From a virus: 32,665 bases of DNA. Shown piece by piece: positions 2,077 through 32,665 of this stretch (position 1 is the first letter of the stretch; each line of letters opens with the position of its first letter). Below the pieces are notes generated by a model that was given only the letters and a program-made list of their open reading frames with translations, was not told the DNA's origin and searched no databases. Made by a program: the position numbers and the translations under genes. The DNA lies in IMG/VR virus record IMGVR_UViG_3300047095_000701, positions 1 through 32,665 of that record, one strand, 5' to 3'.

Positions 2077-2495
2077 TATACGGTCACTCCGTGCTCATAG
2101 CGCAGATCGGCGAGTGTTTTACCTTCAGTCCACTGGCAATGAGGATAATCTTTGAACGACTTCCATGATCCTCCCCATTCGAGTCCCAGACTCATCGCAA
2201 TTTTTCCAGCTTTTGTATATAACGCCACATTATCCCAATCGATCTTCCCATCAACCTTGACTGCGAAATCAAAAGCTCGACGAAAGTTATGATATGATTG
2301 TCCACCTTTTGCATTCGTAACTTTTTTGCCCGGCTTTGTTCGGCCCTGTGCATAGACATCATTTTGTTTTTCAATATCCCTATAAGTTGAGTATATCATA
2401 ACGTCAAGATTATTCAACTTGCACTCATTAACAAACTGATTAGCAAGTCGTTGCAGTTCAGGAAGTAAATCTTCGATTTTACGAGAGTCAATCAT
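2076..2495 (-). CDS. M15-family L-Ala-D-Glu peptidoglycan endopeptidase (endolysin)
   Basis: This 139-residue enzyme has the M15C (CwlK/Ply500-like) order of motifs: STYRDIEKQNDVYAQGRTKP at 36-55, a VTNAKGGQSYHN block at 59-70, the AFD at 74-76, WGGSW at 107-111 and PHCQ at 118-121. The expected zinc ligands are H69, D76 and H119. The family cuts the L-Ala-D-Glu bond in peptidoglycan stems. The length is normal for a single catalytic domain with no wall-binding module. In the usual SxHxxGxAxD motif the glycine is replaced by R72. No signal peptide or membrane segment is visible, so release would need a holin; a holin pair lies at 25990-26380. The 4-bp ATGA overlap with the collagen-like gene suggests coupled translation. 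It could alternatively be carried on the virion. Confidence 0.85.
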   Translation of the reverse strand: MIDSRKIEDLLPELQRLANQFVNECKLNNLDVMIYSTYRDIEKQNDVYAQGRTKPGKKVTNAKGGQSYHNFRRAFDFAVKVDGKIDWDNVALYTKAGKIAMSLGLEWGGSWKSFKDYPHCQWTEGKTLADLRYEHGVTV

Positions 2496-3619
2496 GCTTG
2501 TATAATCCCTTTCGTTGGAGCAAATTTAAGAGTTGTTGCAGAAATTGCGACACCTAATTCTTGTACCACATAATTTGCAGTAGTAGGAATCGCAGTATCT
2601 GCCAGTCCGGCAGTAGTCGATAGATAATAGGTGCTACCAAGACTAAGACTATTTAGATAACTATTTCCACCACCAGTAAGTACAGTAACTGTATCACTTG
2701 TATTATAATTTGCGGATACATAGCCAGTAGCTGCGAGACTAATTGTAGTAGCGGATGCTTTACGAACTTTCAATGCACCTGAGTTATTATAAACATTAAC
2801 TACATTACCAGCAGTTAGAGACTCATCTGCGACGCCGATAACTGGCAATGCATAGGATAGCATAGTTGGGCTACCCCACGGAGAGCTTGTTGCATCAGTT
2901 TTCGGGCCATAGATTTCCAAGGTACTAACATTTATGTACCAATCATTCACTCCACCGATTGTATCTGCTGGTGCTCCGGCTTCATTTAGTACTGCGTAGC
3001 CTCGTTGCCCTTGGATTCCTTGTACGCCTTGAACTCCTTGAATTCCTTGTGGGCCTTGCGCGCCTTCAATTCCTTGTGCTCCAGTAGCACCTGTAGCACC
3101 GGTAGCACCAATAAGTGCGATAGGTGTACCCCAGATCGAAGTTTTTGGTCCATAGAGGAAATAAGTTACTGTATCGAGGTAGAAATCACCTACGACACCT
3201 GCGCCTGCTGAGGGTACTCCGACGCCATTAAGGATAGTATTACCTGCTGTACCTGTAGTTCCTTGGATACCTTGAGGGCCGGTAGGGCCTGTAGCACCTG
3301 TAGCGCCGGTGGCACCTGCACTACCTGTAGCTCCAGTATCGCCTTTTGCACCTTGAATGATAGAGATCCCATCGCTCCAGCCAACGACTGCTTTTGGGCC
3401 GTAGAGTTTATATTCGGCGAGGTCGATATAGAAGTCATCAACTTCGCCGGTTTCAAATGTAGGTGCTCCGTTACCATGCAATAGTGCGGAGCCTCTTGAG
3501 CCTTGCGAGCCTTGAACGCCTTGCAGGCCCTGTTGTCCTTGAATTCCTTGAGTGCCCTGAACACCTTGAACACCTTGAATTCCTTGTGGGCCGATATAAT
3601 CGTCATTAATAATACCCAT
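2492..3619 (-). CDS. collagen-like tail fibre protein with GDFY..LYGPK modules
   Basis: A 375-residue fibre. Three Gly-X-Y blocks (residues 10-43, 90-126 and 171-207) should form collagen-type triple helices. Each is followed by a small domain with the pattern G(D/N)(F/W)Y(I/L)(D/N)...(L/I)YGPK...W (about 60-84, 142-167, 222-253). From about residue 262 a beta-rich C-terminal domain begins (GVADESLTAGNVVNVYNNSG) and ends LGVAISATTLKFAPTKGIIQ, similar to C-terminal domains of other phage collagen-like proteins. ATG at 3619 follows an AGAGG ribosome site. It probably forms a trimeric rod in the tail tip or side fibre. Tandem Gly-X-Y DNA is prone to copy-number change, so rod length may vary between relatives. 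Confidence 0.8.
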   Translation of the reverse strand: MGIINDDYIGPQGIQGVQGVQGTQGIQGQQGLQGVQGSQGSRGSALLHGNGAPTFETGEVDDFYIDLAEYKLYGPKAVVGWSDGISIIQGAKGDTGATGSAGATGATGATGPTGPQGIQGTTGTAGNTILNGVGVPSAGAGVVGDFYLDTVTYFLYGPKTSIWGTPIALIGATGATGATGAQGIEGAQGPQGIQGVQGVQGIQGQRGYAVLNEAGAPADTIGGVNDWYINVSTLEIYGPKTDATSSPWGSPTMLSYALPVIGVADESLTAGNVVNVYNNSGALKVRKASATTISLAATGYVSANYNTSDTVTVLTGGGNSYLNSLSLGSTYYLSTTAGLADTAIPTTANYVVQELGVAISATTLKFAPTKGIIQA

Positions 3620-3628
3620 TTCGACCTC

Positions 3629-5143
3629 TTACAAAACTCGGTTATAATACCATTGCTGATCGTAATAACATGTATACATATTACCCGACTCGCCGATTAA
3701 AAGTCCTCTAGCATTTATGTATGCATGAGAGGAGTAACTTCGTACATACCCATCTGTATTAGATTGGATATAGATATCTGTCATAGGCTCAATAAGATCT
3801 AATTTTTCAGGAGCATTTTGTAAAGTTTGTAATGGGGATGACCCAAATGAAGGAGATAGACCTAATATAGGTAAATCAGATGCTCCACAACTATATACAT
3901 CTCCGCTTGTGGTTAATAACATAACCCCTTTAGTCGGAGCATACGTAGTAGGAGTATATGTTGCAGGTACATATGTATATTGTCTAATAACCTGACATTT
4001 TGTTACCGGCAGAGCAAGTATTAAGGTTGGAGTATCTATATTTGTAGTACTTCCTACCCAAAATCCTCCCCATTTATATGCGTATAATGTCGATTTCTCA
4101 ATACCTACTACATACGGATATTGATACCACTTACTAGGATCATCTAAGCTCTGATGGAACGTCCCTACATGAATAGATTCGTACAGCCCTGAAACAAGGG
4201 TCCAATCTTCTATAATTGTTGCTCCTCCGGGAATACCTAACTGACTGTACTGATTATCACCTTTAACCCATAATTCCCCCGATTCAAGCAATACGTATCT
4301 AGAAATTCTATCATCTGTAGCTGAATCAACTATAATACATTTTTTTATGGTAGAACTAAATTCCTTATCAACATCAAATATGGATTTAGAGGACGCGTAG
4401 GATGTCTCGCTTAATTTTGATCCTGATACTACAGCTGCATGGCTATAGCCTATAATCACATCATCAATTGGTTGAGGATACTGATAAACTGGATGAAACG
4501 TATATGACGCAAATGAAGATTTATTAAGCCCATTTAGCTTTAATGTTGTTGTATATGTATTAGCTGAGGTATAAAAATATAGAATCCCTTCTTTAAGTAC
4601 AAATATATTAAGACTTGTATTTACCGCTACGGACCCATAACTAGTCCCCGCCCAAAAATTATCTACATTAGTGAGCACATCCACAACACCTCTATCTATC
4701 CGAAGAGCTTTATCGGAGGTTAGGGTGACCAGATATTGATACGAGTCTATTGAGTATCCGTTAGAGTACAGAAAATATTTCTGTATTGGGTTACTAGCTT
4801 TATAGATTGTGACCCACTTATTTTCATGGATACTTTTTATGGTAGCGTCATTGAATAGTCTACATACTCCACGTTGTGTAACCGAATACTTACTCGAAAC
4901 GCTTACTTTATCTCCAGCTGTATTAGCGTAATTGCTATCATTATCTATAATATAATTTTTCGTAGCTACGTCGGATAATACGCATTTTTTTATATCGATA
5001 TTATACACAAATGAATCGCGTAGTGTCGACGCTATTGGAATCGTATTGTACGAGTTTAGCCCTCGCAACGTACTATCGACGTGTGATCGGGTGGTGGTAT
5101 CGACAATTTCAGATTGAAGGTTGCTAAAATCAGAATTAATCAA
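3629..5143 (-). CDS. RCC1/BLIP-II-like beta-propeller tip protein (second copy)
   Basis: A 504-residue protein starting at a TTG (5143-5141) that overlaps the end of the preceding gene by 8 bp; AGG lies about 11 bases upstream and no ATG is available near the 5' end. Repeated blade-like segments such as LLESGELWVKGDNQYSQLGI and MLLTTSGDVYSCGA match the 'sG.lw.wG.n...qLG' pattern of RCC1/BLIP-II propellers. Blades are degenerate and interspersed with other beta-rich sequence. RCC1-type repeats usually form 6-7-bladed propellers that bind proteins. Here the likely role is host contact at the tail tip. The neighbouring gene at 5136-6812 has the same type of repeat, so the two probably arose by duplication or form a hetero-assembly. 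Function is inferred. Confidence 0.65.
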   Translation of the reverse strand: MINSDFSNLQSEIVDTTTRSHVDSTLRGLNSYNTIPIASTLRDSFVYNIDIKKCVLSDVATKNYIIDNDSNYANTAGDKVSVSSKYSVTQRGVCRLFNDATIKSIHENKWVTIYKASNPIQKYFLYSNGYSIDSYQYLVTLTSDKALRIDRGVVDVLTNVDNFWAGTSYGSVAVNTSLNIFVLKEGILYFYTSANTYTTTLKLNGLNKSSFASYTFHPVYQYPQPIDDVIIGYSHAAVVSGSKLSETSYASSKSIFDVDKEFSSTIKKCIIVDSATDDRISRYVLLESGELWVKGDNQYSQLGIPGGATIIEDWTLVSGLYESIHVGTFHQSLDDPSKWYQYPYVVGIEKSTLYAYKWGGFWVGSTTNIDTPTLILALPVTKCQVIRQYTYVPATYTPTTYAPTKGVMLLTTSGDVYSCGASDLPILGLSPSFGSSPLQTLQNAPEKLDLIEPMTDIYIQSNTDGYVRSYSSHAYINARGLLIGESGNMYTCYYDQQWYYNRVL

Positions 5144-6812
5144 TAGTGTCTACCTGATTAAACATAGGTTGAGACACATTAGCTATACTACCTATACCTA
5201 ATGAATTTAATATACTCACTCCCCGTGCATAAAGTTTGCCACCTGAGGTCAGTACAAACGTACGTAAATACTGATCATAGGACGACATTTCTGTTGCTCC
5301 GGGATACTTATGTATGTAGCATCTAACATCCACTATAGTTTCTGATGCAGATAAGCCATATAACGGAATCAGACTAAAGTATTGCCCAGCACTTATATCA
5401 TTATATAAAATTGTACTATTATTTAGAATTACATATGTAGCGTACGTAGTATAGTTACTATATTGAATGTATGATCGTGTAGAAACTAGAGCTACAGCAT
5501 CGGTAATTTGAGATATAGTGCCTGATAAATCCTGCTTATAACAAGCAACTGGAGTAGTACGCTGAGTCAAACTTCCATCGGCTAATTGGTACGAGTTATT
5601 ACCTCCCCAGCCATAGACATCTCCTGTGGTAGTTACTCCGAGAACAGAAATTTGTGCCCCAACATTAAAGACTTCAATATCAGTAAATGCATATCCAGTT
5701 AGGTGAGTGAATTCGCTTAAATCAGTTGTATTACCAAGCCCAAAGGATCCGTTAGTATTTACGCCTCGTACCCACAATTCGCCATTAGTTAGTAGTACAA
5801 ATTCTCCTCCAGTATGACTGTAACAAAACTTCCCAATAGGGGATAAGAAAGTATGTGATAATTCAAAGCTTGTTGTATATGTAGCTCCAGCAACATATAA
5901 TTCATAATTTGTATATAAATACGTACGTTGACCGGTACTAACAATCTTTTGAATACCTTCAACAAAAAATTCGAGCGCGGTAAAAGCGGTTAGGCTGGAT
6001 GTATTCCCAGTACCTAACGACCCGGCATAATTATCCCCCTTTACGTAAATCGCCTCGTCGGTCAGTGCAAAGTAATTTACATATGAAGCATTCCATCCAC
6101 CAATATAGACATTGGAGGCATTACTAACATCCAAATTTTTCGTCATTACTGGAGCTATAGATGAATTATATACAACATTTTCCCAGAGATTTCCATCAAC
6201 ATCTATAGCAAAAGTTTGCTTAGCACTCGGAATCACTTTAGCTATATCGATAATATCATCGGACCTAAATATCATATATGATGGATTTGCGCTACCTATA
6301 GATGTTGAAGTAGCATAGACTCCATCAGATCTGGTTAAATAATAACCGTTAACCTCTGTATACGCACCAAACGTAACTACATCATTTGTAGTAGTTACGT
6401 AGCACATAGAGCGTACTGGGGGAAAATACGTATCTTCAGGCAATTTCAGCGCTTTTGTTGACGTCCCTTCAATCCACGCAGCAACTCCATCTTTCATCCC
6501 AATGATTTGTCCGGGTGTCCCAGGAATTAATTTTGAGATTGGGATTGAGTTATCAGCGAGCTCAGCTCCGTTTATATCTACTCCTACTAGTACGGATGAA
6601 GTATCGAGTGTGCCTAGTCTGATCCACGACGCATTGTCACCGCTACGGATATATAGAAAATTATCAGTCAAGTTTGCCCAGAACATATAAGGCATCATCG
6701 TTGGGGGCTCTGTCTCCCCCGCATTCAATGTATTTGTGGCAAGGAGCATCTCATTTAACTTCGGTATTGTATACTCGGTCAATGAGCTCGGAAGCAGGTA
6801 ATTTGATTGCAT
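5136..6812 (-). CDS. RCC1/BLIP-II-like beta-propeller tip protein (first copy)
   Basis: A 558-residue protein with ATG at 6812 overlapping the stop of the J-like gene (TAATG). Residues about 1-135 are a phage fibre-type N-terminus containing ISKLIPGTPGQIIGMKDGVA, a motif common just before distal fibre domains. The rest carries several RCC1-like blades: IYVKGDNYAGSLGTGNTSS, LLTNGELWVRGVNTNGSFGL, TTTGDVYGWGGNNSYQLADG and LTSGGKLYARGVSILNSLGI. These are clear 'G.ly..G.n..g.LG.G' units. The N-terminal part probably docks to the tip and the propeller faces the host. No enzyme motif is visible. RCC1 repeats are best known from eukaryotic nuclear proteins and bacterial effectors, so their use as a phage tip module is notable. 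Confidence 0.75.
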   Translation of the reverse strand: MQSNYLLPSSLTEYTIPKLNEMLLATNTLNAGETEPPTMMPYMFWANLTDNFLYIRSGDNASWIRLGTLDTSSVLVGVDINGAELADNSIPISKLIPGTPGQIIGMKDGVAAWIEGTSTKALKLPEDTYFPPVRSMCYVTTTNDVVTFGAYTEVNGYYLTRSDGVYATSTSIGSANPSYMIFRSDDIIDIAKVIPSAKQTFAIDVDGNLWENVVYNSSIAPVMTKNLDVSNASNVYIGGWNASYVNYFALTDEAIYVKGDNYAGSLGTGNTSSLTAFTALEFFVEGIQKIVSTGQRTYLYTNYELYVAGATYTTSFELSHTFLSPIGKFCYSHTGGEFVLLTNGELWVRGVNTNGSFGLGNTTDLSEFTHLTGYAFTDIEVFNVGAQISVLGVTTTGDVYGWGGNNSYQLADGSLTQRTTPVACYKQDLSGTISQITDAVALVSTRSYIQYSNYTTYATYVILNNSTILYNDISAGQYFSLIPLYGLSASETIVDVRCYIHKYPGATEMSSYDQYLRTFVLTSGGKLYARGVSILNSLGIGSIANVSQPMFNQVDTID

Positions 6813-29035: not shown

Positions 29036-30392
29036 CCTCTTTGTCCCTCTCTAATTCATCTATGATGTCTAAATCACTATCTTCAGGCGATAATACATCA
29101 CCCCTCTTTAAGTTGTAAACTAAAGTCTGCGCATTGATCCCTCCAGTCTGATACGCAGATACTAAATCAAGTACCTCACGTGTAGTTAATCGATCATCTA
29201 AAAAGTCCTTGTTGAATGATATGTATACTTCATCAGGATTCGCCCCTAAACTCTCCGCAATAAATCGATAACTCTTGGTTAAAACACTCTCTACCGTACG
29301 TACTAAGGTCGTTAATCCAGCTACCTCACTCATGTACCGTAAACGTACTGTATCTACAGCCTCACTTCCATACCTCGAATTGTCAAGCATCCGCGCTGAT
29401 AAACTCGCCATCTGCGTCTGCTTCTCTACTAACGCCCTCTCTAACGCCCCTAACCCTACCCCAGTAAATTCAAGGTACTTCGCATCAGAATTGACGTCAG
29501 GTAACACCCACGCACTCGTGCTACCTACCCTTAATTTTACGTTCGCATCCGCACCAATTAATACCGGCGTCGGTAATCCCGTAAAATGTCTCCCATGCTC
29601 TAAATCTGCACTAGTCCGATAATGACTGATGTTGATGTCTACAATGTCAAGCAATGGAGGCTTCTGAATGACGTGACTCATCCCAGTCGGTGTTACTAAC
29701 TGAAATGGAATGAAATTTAATGCCCTCCCCTTTATGGTCGGAGTTATAATACTTCCATCACTGGCTAATACTTGCTGATAGACTCCATCATTTAATAATA
29801 AAATACGCTCCTTGACCTTTAATTCCTGCGCAAAATTTGATCCCTGCTCATAATAACTCTCCTCTAATACATAAAAATTCTTGCCCCAGTTTATTACAGA
29901 CTCCGCATTGTATAATACAATATCATATACCCCACTGTCTATAGGCGCATCTACCATTACTCCAGCTCGACCAGTGATTAATAACTCAGTGATTAAATCA
30001 GTTACTACCTCGTAAAATTGCCGATGCTCATCATTGTCTTCAAAATAACCGGCTAACTCCGGAGGATACCTCAACGCAGGTGGCCTCGTCATTACCATCC
30101 CTACAAATGCACTGATCGTCTTGCTTAATATACTGAAAAATAACGCCCGATCCTTGTATAAATTATACTCCTCAGTGCTCTGCTCACTTAACCGTGGTAA
30201 ATATGCCTCCCCTCGCTCCTTTACTACCCGACTCCCATAATATACATCCCTACACTTGTCCCAATCACTCCTATAATATACATACTCAGGATGCTTGCTC
30301 ATCCTCCCTACCTGACTCGCTCCACCTAATCCACTGTGTACCCCAGCTATCGGAGCACTCGTCGTCGAATATCCAAAACTTAACTCACCCAT
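28860..30392 (-). CDS. portal protein (DUF4055 family)
   Basis: A 510-residue protein. The pattern HPEYVYYRSDWDKCRDVYYG, 'GEAYLPRLSEQSTEEYNLYK' and 'RALFFSILSKTISAFVGMVM TRPP' is the typical start of the DUF4055 portal family; 'LITELLITGRAGVMVDAP' follows. The middle (KYLEFTGVGLGALERALVEK, MLDNSRYGSEA) and the long C-terminal helix are also typical. The last 60 residues are acidic then basic and low in complexity (NGGSDDGDGDGSDPERRSA and beyond). The portal is the dodecameric ring through which DNA enters and leaves. ATG at 30392 overlaps the preceding gene by 8 bp; the 3' 176 bp overlap the scaffold frame. Confidence 0.85.
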   Translation of the reverse strand: MGELSFGYSTTSAPIAGVHSGLGGASQVGRMSKHPEYVYYRSDWDKCRDVYYGSRVVKERGEAYLPRLSEQSTEEYNLYKDRALFFSILSKTISAFVGMVMTRPPALRYPPELAGYFEDNDEHRQFYEVVTDLITELLITGRAGVMVDAPIDSGVYDIVLYNAESVINWGKNFYVLEESYYEQGSNFAQELKVKERILLLNDGVYQQVLASDGSIITPTIKGRALNFIPFQLVTPTGMSHVIQKPPLLDIVDINISHYRTSADLEHGRHFTGLPTPVLIGADANVKLRVGSTSAWVLPDVNSDAKYLEFTGVGLGALERALVEKQTQMASLSARMLDNSRYGSEAVDTVRLRYMSEVAGLTTLVRTVESVLTKSYRFIAESLGANPDEVYISFNKDFLDDRLTTREVLDLVSAYQTGGINAQTLVYNLKRGDVLSPEDSDLDIIDELERDKEDARRIAAGNGGSDDGDGDGSDPERRSATDVDTDPKPRTAKSASRGAVISGAKPNRRRY

Positions 30393-30837
30393 CTTCGCCC
30401 CCTGTAGCTATCTCCGCCTCAAATTCCGCCTTCATGTCATCTAATCCATAATCCTCACTTAATTCCCCGTATACCGCATCACTTCGTAATATCGATATCG
30501 GCGCATCCTTACTAGTCCTACTATAACTTATCTGCCCTAAATTACTTAAATCTTCATACTCACTTGTATTACTCTTATCCTCAAGTATATCATTACTTTC
30601 ATCTATATTCGACCCAAATAATTTTACACGTACATAATTGTCTACACGCTTCTCCTCTAAATACTCTACCGCCTTGACCTCAGGCTCAATGTACCTTAAT
30701 ATAGTCTTGTGACATAAATATCGTAAACTGACCGGCGTACCTTCATCCTGCGCTATGTCCGTTAAACTTACTATCGGATGATACCCAGGATAATACCCCT
30801 GAATTAAATCTAATAACCGCTCACCTCGCCTAGCCAT
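30385..30837 (-). CDS. conserved protein between terL and portal, possible small terminase
   Basis: A 150-residue protein beginning MARRGERLLDLIQGYYPGYH. The first 60 residues (HPIVSLTDIAQDEGTPVSLR then HKTILRYIEPEVKAVE) resemble a helical element found in small phage proteins beside large terminases, some annotated as small terminase subunits. The rest is acidic and probably flexible. Acting as the TerS DNA-recognition subunit is possible, but a clear helix-turn-helix is not visible and TerS usually precedes TerL. It starts 3 bp after the terL stop and overlaps the portal by 8 bp. Confidence 0.5.
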   Translation of the reverse strand: MARRGERLLDLIQGYYPGYHPIVSLTDIAQDEGTPVSLRYLCHKTILRYIEPEVKAVEYLEEKRVDNYVRVKLFGSNIDESNDILEDKSNTSEYEDLSNLGQISYSRTSKDAPISILRSDAVYGELSEDYGLDDMKAEFEAEIATGGEDG

Positions 30838-30839
30838 CG

Positions 30840-32261
30840 CTATATCCCCGTTACCCTAGCCTTGTGTACTACCCTCGCCGCCCGTAATATCCGATACCGA
30901 ATGCAGTCCCATATGTGATCCTCACCATGCGTGTCAACATCATCCTCATTCGTACTGTCACTCTGTAACTCCGGTACAGTCCGTATCGTATGTACACAAT
31001 TACTGAATATGTATATCCCAGCTTGCTCTATACTACCTACCTTAGATGCTAATAATCGCTGCCTCATGATCTGTACACCCTGTACCCGACTCCCAGCACT
31101 CTTGATCGCTCGACAAAATTTGACCCCTACTCGCTCCATCTCCATCGCTACACTTGTGTGCCCAGGCTCATTAACAAATATCGCACTGTCCGCAGGACCA
31201 ACATTTATGTAATTGCTCCCTATTATCCCTCGTAATTCCCCATTCTCATAGTCAAGTATCTTGGACGCTTGCTCCGTCGCCGTTAACCTTAATCCCTCAT
31301 TCCGCCGGTTCGCTATGTATACCTCACCTATGATGAATATCGTCCCACGAGGATATACACGCCCATCCCCAACCTCTTCTCCATTGCTCTCAGCAAACCA
31401 TACACACGCAGCAGGACTCGTGCTACCATAATCATAACTCTTGTCTATCCGCCAACTGCCCGGTATCGCAAATGGCGCTAGTACATGCCGACGACTGTCC
31501 CATACATCAGTGAATCCTCCACTGCTTAAAGCATCCCAATCCCCTTCTAACATCCCCTTTACTAACGCTGTGTCCCCTAATCCTAATAACCGAGTCGCAT
31601 ACTCAGGATCACTGTGTAATAATGCCTTGTTGTCCCTTAAATACGACGGAATGTACTCACGTAACATCCCACCCTCATCCTCAGGTGCCCGATATACATG
31701 CCCTCCACCAAAATTAACAAAATTACTCTTGAAAAAATGATGCGATGGCCCCCCAGGATTCGCAGTATATAATATCCTCGGAAATAATCCCTTGTACTTC
31801 CCAGGTATACTTAATGACCCTAACCGTACACGACTCCGAATGAATCGTATCATCTCCTCCGTAAAATGAGTCGCTTCATCTATAATTAAAAATCCAATCT
31901 GCGCCCCTTGATGACTGTATATGTCCCCTTCATATTGACTGTGAGCTAATTGTATCCGACTCCCATTCCGAAATGCAAAACTATACTCATTCTTGCTGAA
32001 TATTACCTCCTTCGCCTTTATCATCGGAGCTAACATCTCTAAATACCCGCCCGGAGTGTATATGTGATTCGCTACTACTTCCTTGAATGTCCGCCGAAAT
32101 AAATATGTGATTAATCCGGGAATCTCTAAACTATATACAATGCTCCCTACACGAGCTAAATAACTCTTCCCTCCGCCTACCGCACCTCCATATAATAACT
32201 CTGTCGCAGGACTTACTAACGCCCGCATCTGTGGCGGATATAACTCATACTCAGCTAACAT
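30840..32261 (-). CDS. terL: terminase large subunit (ATPase and nuclease)
   Basis: A 473-residue packaging motor. Walker A is GGAVGGGKS (25-33), Walker B FLIIDE (124-129) with E129 the catalytic carboxylate, and motif III TANPG (166-170). The RNase H-like nuclease domain shows acidic residues D277 (SYDYGS), D358 (GPADSAIF) and D452 (HIWDCIRY). The protein powers DNA into the portal and cuts the concatemer at initiation and completion. ATG at 32261 has AAGG 7 bases upstream and lies about 34 bases after the predicted transcription start of an extended -10 promoter. It is the first gene of the visible operon. Confidence 0.95.
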   Translation of the reverse strand: MLAEYELYPPQMRALVSPATELLYGGAVGGGKSYLARVGSIVYSLEIPGLITYLFRRTFKEVVANHIYTPGGYLEMLAPMIKAKEVIFSKNEYSFAFRNGSRIQLAHSQYEGDIYSHQGAQIGFLIIDEATHFTEEMIRFIRSRVRLGSLSIPGKYKGLFPRILYTANPGGPSHHFFKSNFVNFGGGHVYRAPEDEGGMLREYIPSYLRDNKALLHSDPEYATRLLGLGDTALVKGMLEGDWDALSSGGFTDVWDSRRHVLAPFAIPGSWRIDKSYDYGSTSPAACVWFAESNGEEVGDGRVYPRGTIFIIGEVYIANRRNEGLRLTATEQASKILDYENGELRGIIGSNYINVGPADSAIFVNEPGHTSVAMEMERVGVKFCRAIKSAGSRVQGVQIMRQRLLASKVGSIEQAGIYIFSNCVHTIRTVPELQSDSTNEDDVDTHGEDHIWDCIRYRILRAARVVHKARVTGI

Positions 32262-32301: not shown

Positions 32302-32329
32302 ATTATATCATACCTGATGTACTATTCAA
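32302..32329 (-). promoter_or_regulatory. extended -10 sigma-70-type promoter of the late operon
   Basis: On the minus strand TTGAAT (32329-32324) is followed by a 16-base spacer and a perfect TATAAT (32307-32302) with TGA directly before it, so it is an extended -10 promoter (TGnTATAAT). The -35 has four of six consensus bases. Predicted start is near 32295, leaving a leader of about 34 bases for terL. The -35 sits in a fourth, degenerate copy of the GTTGAAT box repeated upstream, which suggests regulation by a protein bound there. Confidence 0.7.
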
Positions 32330-32342
32330 CAATATTCTAGCA

Positions 32343-32436
32343 GTTACAATTCAACACCAAAATGAAAAAAAATTTGTTACAATTCAACACCAAAATGAAA
32401 AAAAATTTGTTACAATTCAACACCAAAATGAAAAAA
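32343..32436. repeat. three tandem 33-bp direct repeats upstream of terL
   Basis: The unit (GTTACAATTCAACACCAAAA then TGAAAAAAAATTT) occurs at 32343-32375 and 32376-32408 without difference; a third, 28-bp copy (32409-32436) is identical except that its A-run is two bases shorter and it lacks the end. Box GTTGAATTGTAAC on the minus strand therefore recurs every 33 bp, about three helical turns, placing the boxes on one face of the DNA, with A-tracts between them that would bend it. A related box occurs at the promoter. There are no spacers, so this is not CRISPR. Possible roles: terminase binding sites, operator, or replication iterons. Confidence 0.85.
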
Positions 32437-32451
32437 TACCGCGAGGTGACG

Positions 32452-32470
32452 CGCGCTCCGTGATAGCGCG
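32452..32470. repeat. GC-rich inverted repeat next to the direct repeats
   Basis: CGCGCT (32452-32457) and AGCGCG (32465-32470) are perfect inverted arms around a 7-base loop (CCGTGAT). The surrounding 32440-32486 is markedly GC-rich against AT-rich flanks. The position, beside tandem repeats and upstream of terL, resembles the layout of a cos/pac site in which a partly symmetric cutting site lies next to repeated terminase-binding sites. It could equally be a terminator or operator; no U-run follows directly on either strand. Confidence 0.5.
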
Positions 32471-32478
32471 AACGGGGC

Positions 32479-32495
32479 CTGGCACGATTCTTGCT
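32479..32495 (+). promoter_or_regulatory. sigma-54 (RpoN) promoter motif, rightward
   Basis: The + strand reads CTGGCACG ATTC TTGCT, matching the sigma-54 core consensus YTGGCACG-N4-TTGCW at every defined position, with the GG and GC elements correctly spaced (-24/-12). A start near 32506 would transcribe rightward, away from terL. A 7-bp dyad (CGATTCT at 32485-32491 and AGAATCG at 32502-32508) overlaps the -12 element. No enhancer site is identifiable. An exact 13-position match is very unlikely by chance in this length, but activity is unproven. Confidence 0.6.
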
Positions 32496-32508
32496 ATCAT
32501 GAGAATCG

Positions 32509-32665
32509 CATGCGTTCCAGACTCATTGACAGGCTTATGGCGGGAAAAGTTATATTTCAATATATCAATATTTTTATTGAAAATACCATATATATATTGA
32601 TTTGACGTTTCGGAGTCACTCCAGTGCGACACAAAAAAAATTCAAGGCAACGCGATTTTTCTATT
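32509..32665. other. AT-rich right end without a convincing gene
   Basis: The rest of the window is AT-rich. It holds overlapping dyads around TTTCAATA...TATTGAAA (about 32555-32583) and a poly-A stretch at 32632-32640. Short frames on both strands lack ribosome sites. It may be the untranslated leader of a rightward gene that begins beyond the window. Confidence 0.5.

Follow-up and report, generated by a model that had tools for sequence, protein, structure and literature searches.

The stretch of DNA analysed here (the window) is the whole of an IMG/VR record, a linear piece of viral DNA 32,665 bp in length. Its genes run leftward from the large terminase gene in the order terL, a gene for a 150-aa protein, portal, scaffold, capsid and tail. 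The TerL protein is 61% identical to that of Xanthomonas phage Xp15, 58-59% to those of the Acinetobacter phages Effie and HHU4, and 44% to those of the Rosemountviruses. Bacterial genomes searched with TerL yielded no confirmed relative, and the best match of a capsid-gene search for a closer relative (L087; 90% capsid identity, 4.3 kb) stops short of the site discussed below. In the tail region, two adjacent proteins (3629-6812, minus strand) carry RCC1-type repeats, which is unusual for such a region, and the likely tail-tip proteins (2492-3619 and 775-2076, both minus strand) show collagen-like repeats (Pfam E 5.5e-19) and a weak match to the YadA head that lies below the cut-off. The features on and around the intergenic DNA upstream of terL are as follows.

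30385-30837, minus strand: 150-aa protein, candidate small terminase (tblastn 41-47% over ~70 aa, E to 1e-17)
30840-32261, minus strand: terL (PHROG large terminase, E 1.8e-31; 61% to Xp15)
32302-32329, minus strand: promoter-like site before terL, TTGAAT-16-TATAAT with an extended -10 (10/12, sigma-70-like)
32343-32375, minus strand: 33-bp repeat unit 1, with the box GTTGAATTGTAAC at 32355-32343
32376-32408, minus strand: 33-bp repeat unit 2, identical to unit 1, with its box at 32388-32376
32409-32441, minus strand: 33-bp repeat unit 3, with its box at 32421-32409; the T-tract of the putative junction element makes up its upstream part
32430-32440, minus strand: T-tract end of the putative junction element, GGTATTTTTTC; the same 11-mer occurs in L011, and repeat unit 3 begins with it
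32441-32472, minus strand: GC-rich spacer of the putative element, containing a dyad at 32452-32470
32473-32479, minus strand: GGCCCCG, the counterpart, by pattern match, of the GGGGCCC block of the relatives
32479-32495, plus strand: exact sigma-54 consensus CTGGCACG-N4-TTGCT (TGGCACG-N4-TTGCT), overlapping the GGCC block and pointing off the record
32486-32507, minus strand: dyad GATTCT-N10-AGAATC, at the site where several relatives have Fur-box-like palindromes

Tandem Repeats Finder reports one strong array, at 32343-32436, with a period of 33 and 100% matches. The units start at 32343, 32376 and 32409, giving spacings of 33 and 33, and the third is identical to the others up to 32436 and diverges beyond (88% overall). 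The longest exact self-match at a lag of 33 is 61 bases, against shuffle maxima of 12 (300 shuffles of the 404-bp intergenic region) and 14 (ten shuffles of the whole window), so the array is not a product of chance. The first-pass annotation had proposed three near-identical 33-bp units beside terL, and these are borne out. The window has three exact copies of the 13-mer GTTACAATTCAAC, and matches to it with 3 mismatches are no more frequent than expected by chance. The annotation had also placed the boxes on one face of the helix, which holds for the three boxes at 33 bp but not for a fourth, degenerate box, TACTATTCAACA at 32320-32331, which lies 25 bp from box 1 and is off phase. No exact or spaced match to the 33-bp repeat was found in viral contigs, in bacterial and archaeal genomes or in the fetched loci of relatives; BLAST of the intergenic region against phages and plasmids gave nothing useful, and Rfam gave no match. 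As the repeat has no match elsewhere, the array was placed by its surroundings and not by its own sequence. The record itself ends 224 bp past the array.

These surroundings contain an element that was first recognised by reading the DNA upstream of the late operons of relatives. It has the form GG(GG)CCC, about 35 GC-rich bases, and GGnATTTTTTC, and it lies in noncoding DNA upstream of the late operon, on the terL strand, in 15 relatives whose TerL is 43-64% identical. A spacing-restricted pattern (pattern C) gives 15 matches in 1.0 Mb, both strands included, all of them upstream of terL and on the terL strand; they come from the window and from 12 distinct relatives, of which Effie and a metagenomic phage are each counted twice, and the specificity of the pattern is partly fitted since it was loosened to accept GGCCCC. 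A looser pattern adds L014, L027 and L048 together with two matches elsewhere. Within the window, pattern C falls at 32479-32430 (minus strand), and it is present in 2 of 5000 shuffles of the window intergenic region. A profile trained on ten of these elements recovers five others absent from its training set (MD-2021a, HHU4, L017, L027 and L048). When the profile is built without the window, the element site ranks first in the window with a weak score (E 0.46), and in an enlarged profile model it comes second, at 3.4 bits and E 5.7. The profile search misses the element in Escherichia phage fHy-Eco03, which has only the GC-to-T-tract layout in common. Pattern and place thus speak for the window site as the counterpart of the relatives' element, an assignment that by profile score is weak.

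Several relatives, two Acinetobacter phage records among them, carry clusters of Fur-box-like palindromes (matches to the 19-bp GATAATGATAATCATTATC with at most 4 mismatches) just before the element; in the rest of the relatives' loci such palindromes are rare. The clustered ones lie at 4334-4534 in L007, 3057-3171 in L011, 623-902 in L013, 4001-4307 in L014, 339 in L017, 1272 in L005 and 1588 in L101. A literature search found no published link between Fur boxes and phage late genes.

The genome ends of two relatives fall at this place. The first 3,598 bases of the Effie record are repeated exactly at its end as a direct terminal repeat (DTR), and this end, taken from the sequence record, lies 30 nt into the element. 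For fHy-Eco03, terminal repeats of 3,699 bp were found with PhageTerm and verified by restriction digestion (PMC8145870); the end given by PhageTerm is base 3699, immediately ahead of GGCAAATTTTTT, and base 3700 begins GGCAAATTTTTTATTTTTTTC. The junctions of Effie and fHy-Eco03 lie 2.1 and 3.7 kb upstream of terL, respectively. Terminal repeats were also proposed, from a terminase tree, for phage S144, whose layout is related (PMC7432712). The Rosemountvirus vB_SenM-1 was reported to use cos packaging (PMC7503781), which conflicts with the relatives that have DTRs. We take the element to be the DTR end and the place of the terminase cut. By its position in Effie and fHy-Eco03, the cut or DTR end of the window phage is predicted at about 32440-32450.

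Direct repeats beside the element are not confined to the window. In the 120 bp after the T-tract, strong direct repeats are found in nine of the 16 phages, window included, compared with 52 of 400 random stretches (13%; p 9e-5), and the excess persists when the window is left out (eight of 15 relatives; p 3e-4). The remaining seven of the 16 element-bearing phages have no clear repeats in these 120 bp, and the next two 120-bp zones contain repeats in 2/16 and 0/16. The repeat sequences differ by phage, with GTGC(C/T)(A/T)(A/G)G-type boxes in several and AT-rich boxes at 33 bp in the window, which are unlike those of the relatives. HHU4 has 18 GTGCYWRG boxes in 50 kb, and five of them fall in a stretch of about 90 bp next to the element. 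Spacings of 14, 20, 21, 22, 28, 42 and 45 bp are the best for repeats in the relatives, so helical phasing is not a common property. The intergenic DNA across the element from these repeats is repeat-rich as well, so that the junction region as a whole is marked by repeats.

The 150-aa protein belongs to a family encoded by the small gene adjoining terL in relatives, directly before terL in Effie (gene 100) and others. The gene order is swapped in the window, where the 150-aa gene follows terL instead of preceding it. The protein has no Pfam, PHROG or fold match, and a search of solved structures with its profile returned only weak matches, to MAD2B, which were judged to be chance. Its structure model has a pLDDT of 58, with three predicted helices in the N-terminal 55 residues (pLDDT 81-89 at residues 11-50) that neither support nor exclude a role as small terminase. 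A small terminase is nevertheless a plausible identity for this protein, given the company it keeps.

Several known packaging sites offer themselves for comparison. In lambda, the R sites of cosB are repeats beside a GC-rich cut region (cosN) and the terminase gene, and the DNA ends in 12-base cohesive ends. The first-pass annotation had likened the order of dyad, repeats and terminase gene in the window to this arrangement. The likeness is not supported, since Effie and fHy-Eco03 have DTRs of 3.6-3.7 kb in place of 12-base cohesive ends and junctions that lie kilobases from terL, and by present evidence the site is probably not a lambda-type cos site. The GC-rich dyad invoked in that comparison does exist, but the strand folds no better than shuffles (z -0.1). 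Another known site is pac of the Bacillus phages SPP1 and SF6, where direct repeats lie beside the first terminase cut and adjoin the terminase genes, as the array would in the window. SPP1 packages by a headful mechanism from pac, whereas relatives of the window phage have fixed long terminal repeats, and the sequences are unrelated. For SPP1 and SF6, too, repeats next to the pac cut vary between relatives that share the same packaging (PMC4737164). The DTR ends of Effie and of the Rosemountvirus-like fHy-Eco03 resemble the window in having a homologous terminase and GC-rich followed by T-tract DNA upstream of the late operon. Neither has 33-bp units; the repeats of Effie are shorter and imperfect, of the GTGCCTGG type, while no repeats were seen at the DTR end of fHy-Eco03.

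A role in transcription was weighed as well. A phage or host regulator on the three phased boxes (at about -53, -86 and -119) could control terL and the late operon from operator or activator sites of the promoter at 32329-32302. The -35 of this promoter-like site starts 14 bp beyond box 1, and the fourth box, claimed in the first-pass annotation to form it, does overlap with it; promoter-like sites in the array region are, however, no more numerous than in shuffles. The extended -10, the degenerate box on the -35 and the 33-bp phasing would suit such control, as would the tandem units upstream of the late operon in L007 and L011, which contain TTGACT and palindromes. Yet the repeats of Effie and HHU4 stay with the junction element, about 300 bp from the first late gene, and the window unit includes the junction T-tract; together with the off-phase fourth box and the chance-level promoter count, this makes control by operators rather unlikely as the function of the array. 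The boxes might also serve an enhancer-binding protein at about -91, -124 and -157 of a plus-strand sigma-54 promoter starting near 32506. The consensus is exact and has no second match in the window even when 2 mismatches are allowed, one other exact core was found in 0.8 Mb of related loci, and the enhancer distances are typical. This reading was downgraded when the GGCC block turned out to be part of the conserved element; the consensus overlaps that block and a dyad and so may be a coincidence, it is not conserved at the same place in relatives, shuffles yield 1.7 matches with up to 2 mismatches, and no gene is seen in the remaining 159 bp of the record. We consider it very improbable.

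Two further readings concern the DNA itself. Phased identical repeats near AT-rich DNA recall replication-origin iterons, with 32545-32605 as the unwinding region, but no initiator gene is seen in the window and the GC-rich element separating the repeats from the AT-rich stretch is the packaging junction in relatives, so that an origin here is scarcely credible. Neutral tandem duplication of a junction-proximal stretch, with no function of its own, would account for two identical units and a third that breaks off at the T-tract, as recent slippage would give, and phages of this kind are rich in intergenic repeats. It does not account for repeats of other sequence at the same place in eight of 15 relatives, compared with 13% of random stretches, and we judge it improbable.

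The array is probably part of the packaging junction or signal, and the reading that we favour, with somewhat better than even confidence, is that it consists of putative repeats for terminase recognition, on the side of the junction that faces the late operon, in a phage with long DTRs. The earlier proposal of a terminase binding array is upheld in its link to packaging, as the array abuts the element where the DTRs of Effie and fHy-Eco03 end and the 150-aa family lies beside terL. We infer that the window phage has its own ends at this junction, that the 150-aa protein binds there and that the repeats are required. While the DNA replicates as a concatemer, the terminal repeat would end next to the late operon, at about 32440-32450; the small terminase, probably the 150-aa protein, would bind the repeated boxes and T-tracts, and once bound would position the large terminase to cut the neighbouring GC-rich spacer. 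Control of the late promoter by the same protein and sites is possible.

On a broader and more tentative level, to which we give somewhat less than even credence, these phages may form a lytic group with an undescribed virion-end element, in which a conserved core is kept while the adjoining repeat array is replaced in each lineage, the small terminase presumably co-evolving, and Fur-box-like arrays lie across the element in several lineages. Little is understood of how terminases select the ends when genomes have long DTRs, and a conserved element with two known ends and lineage-specific arrays offers a defined site at which this can be tested. The element would also predict the ends of metagenomic phages of this group from sequence alone.
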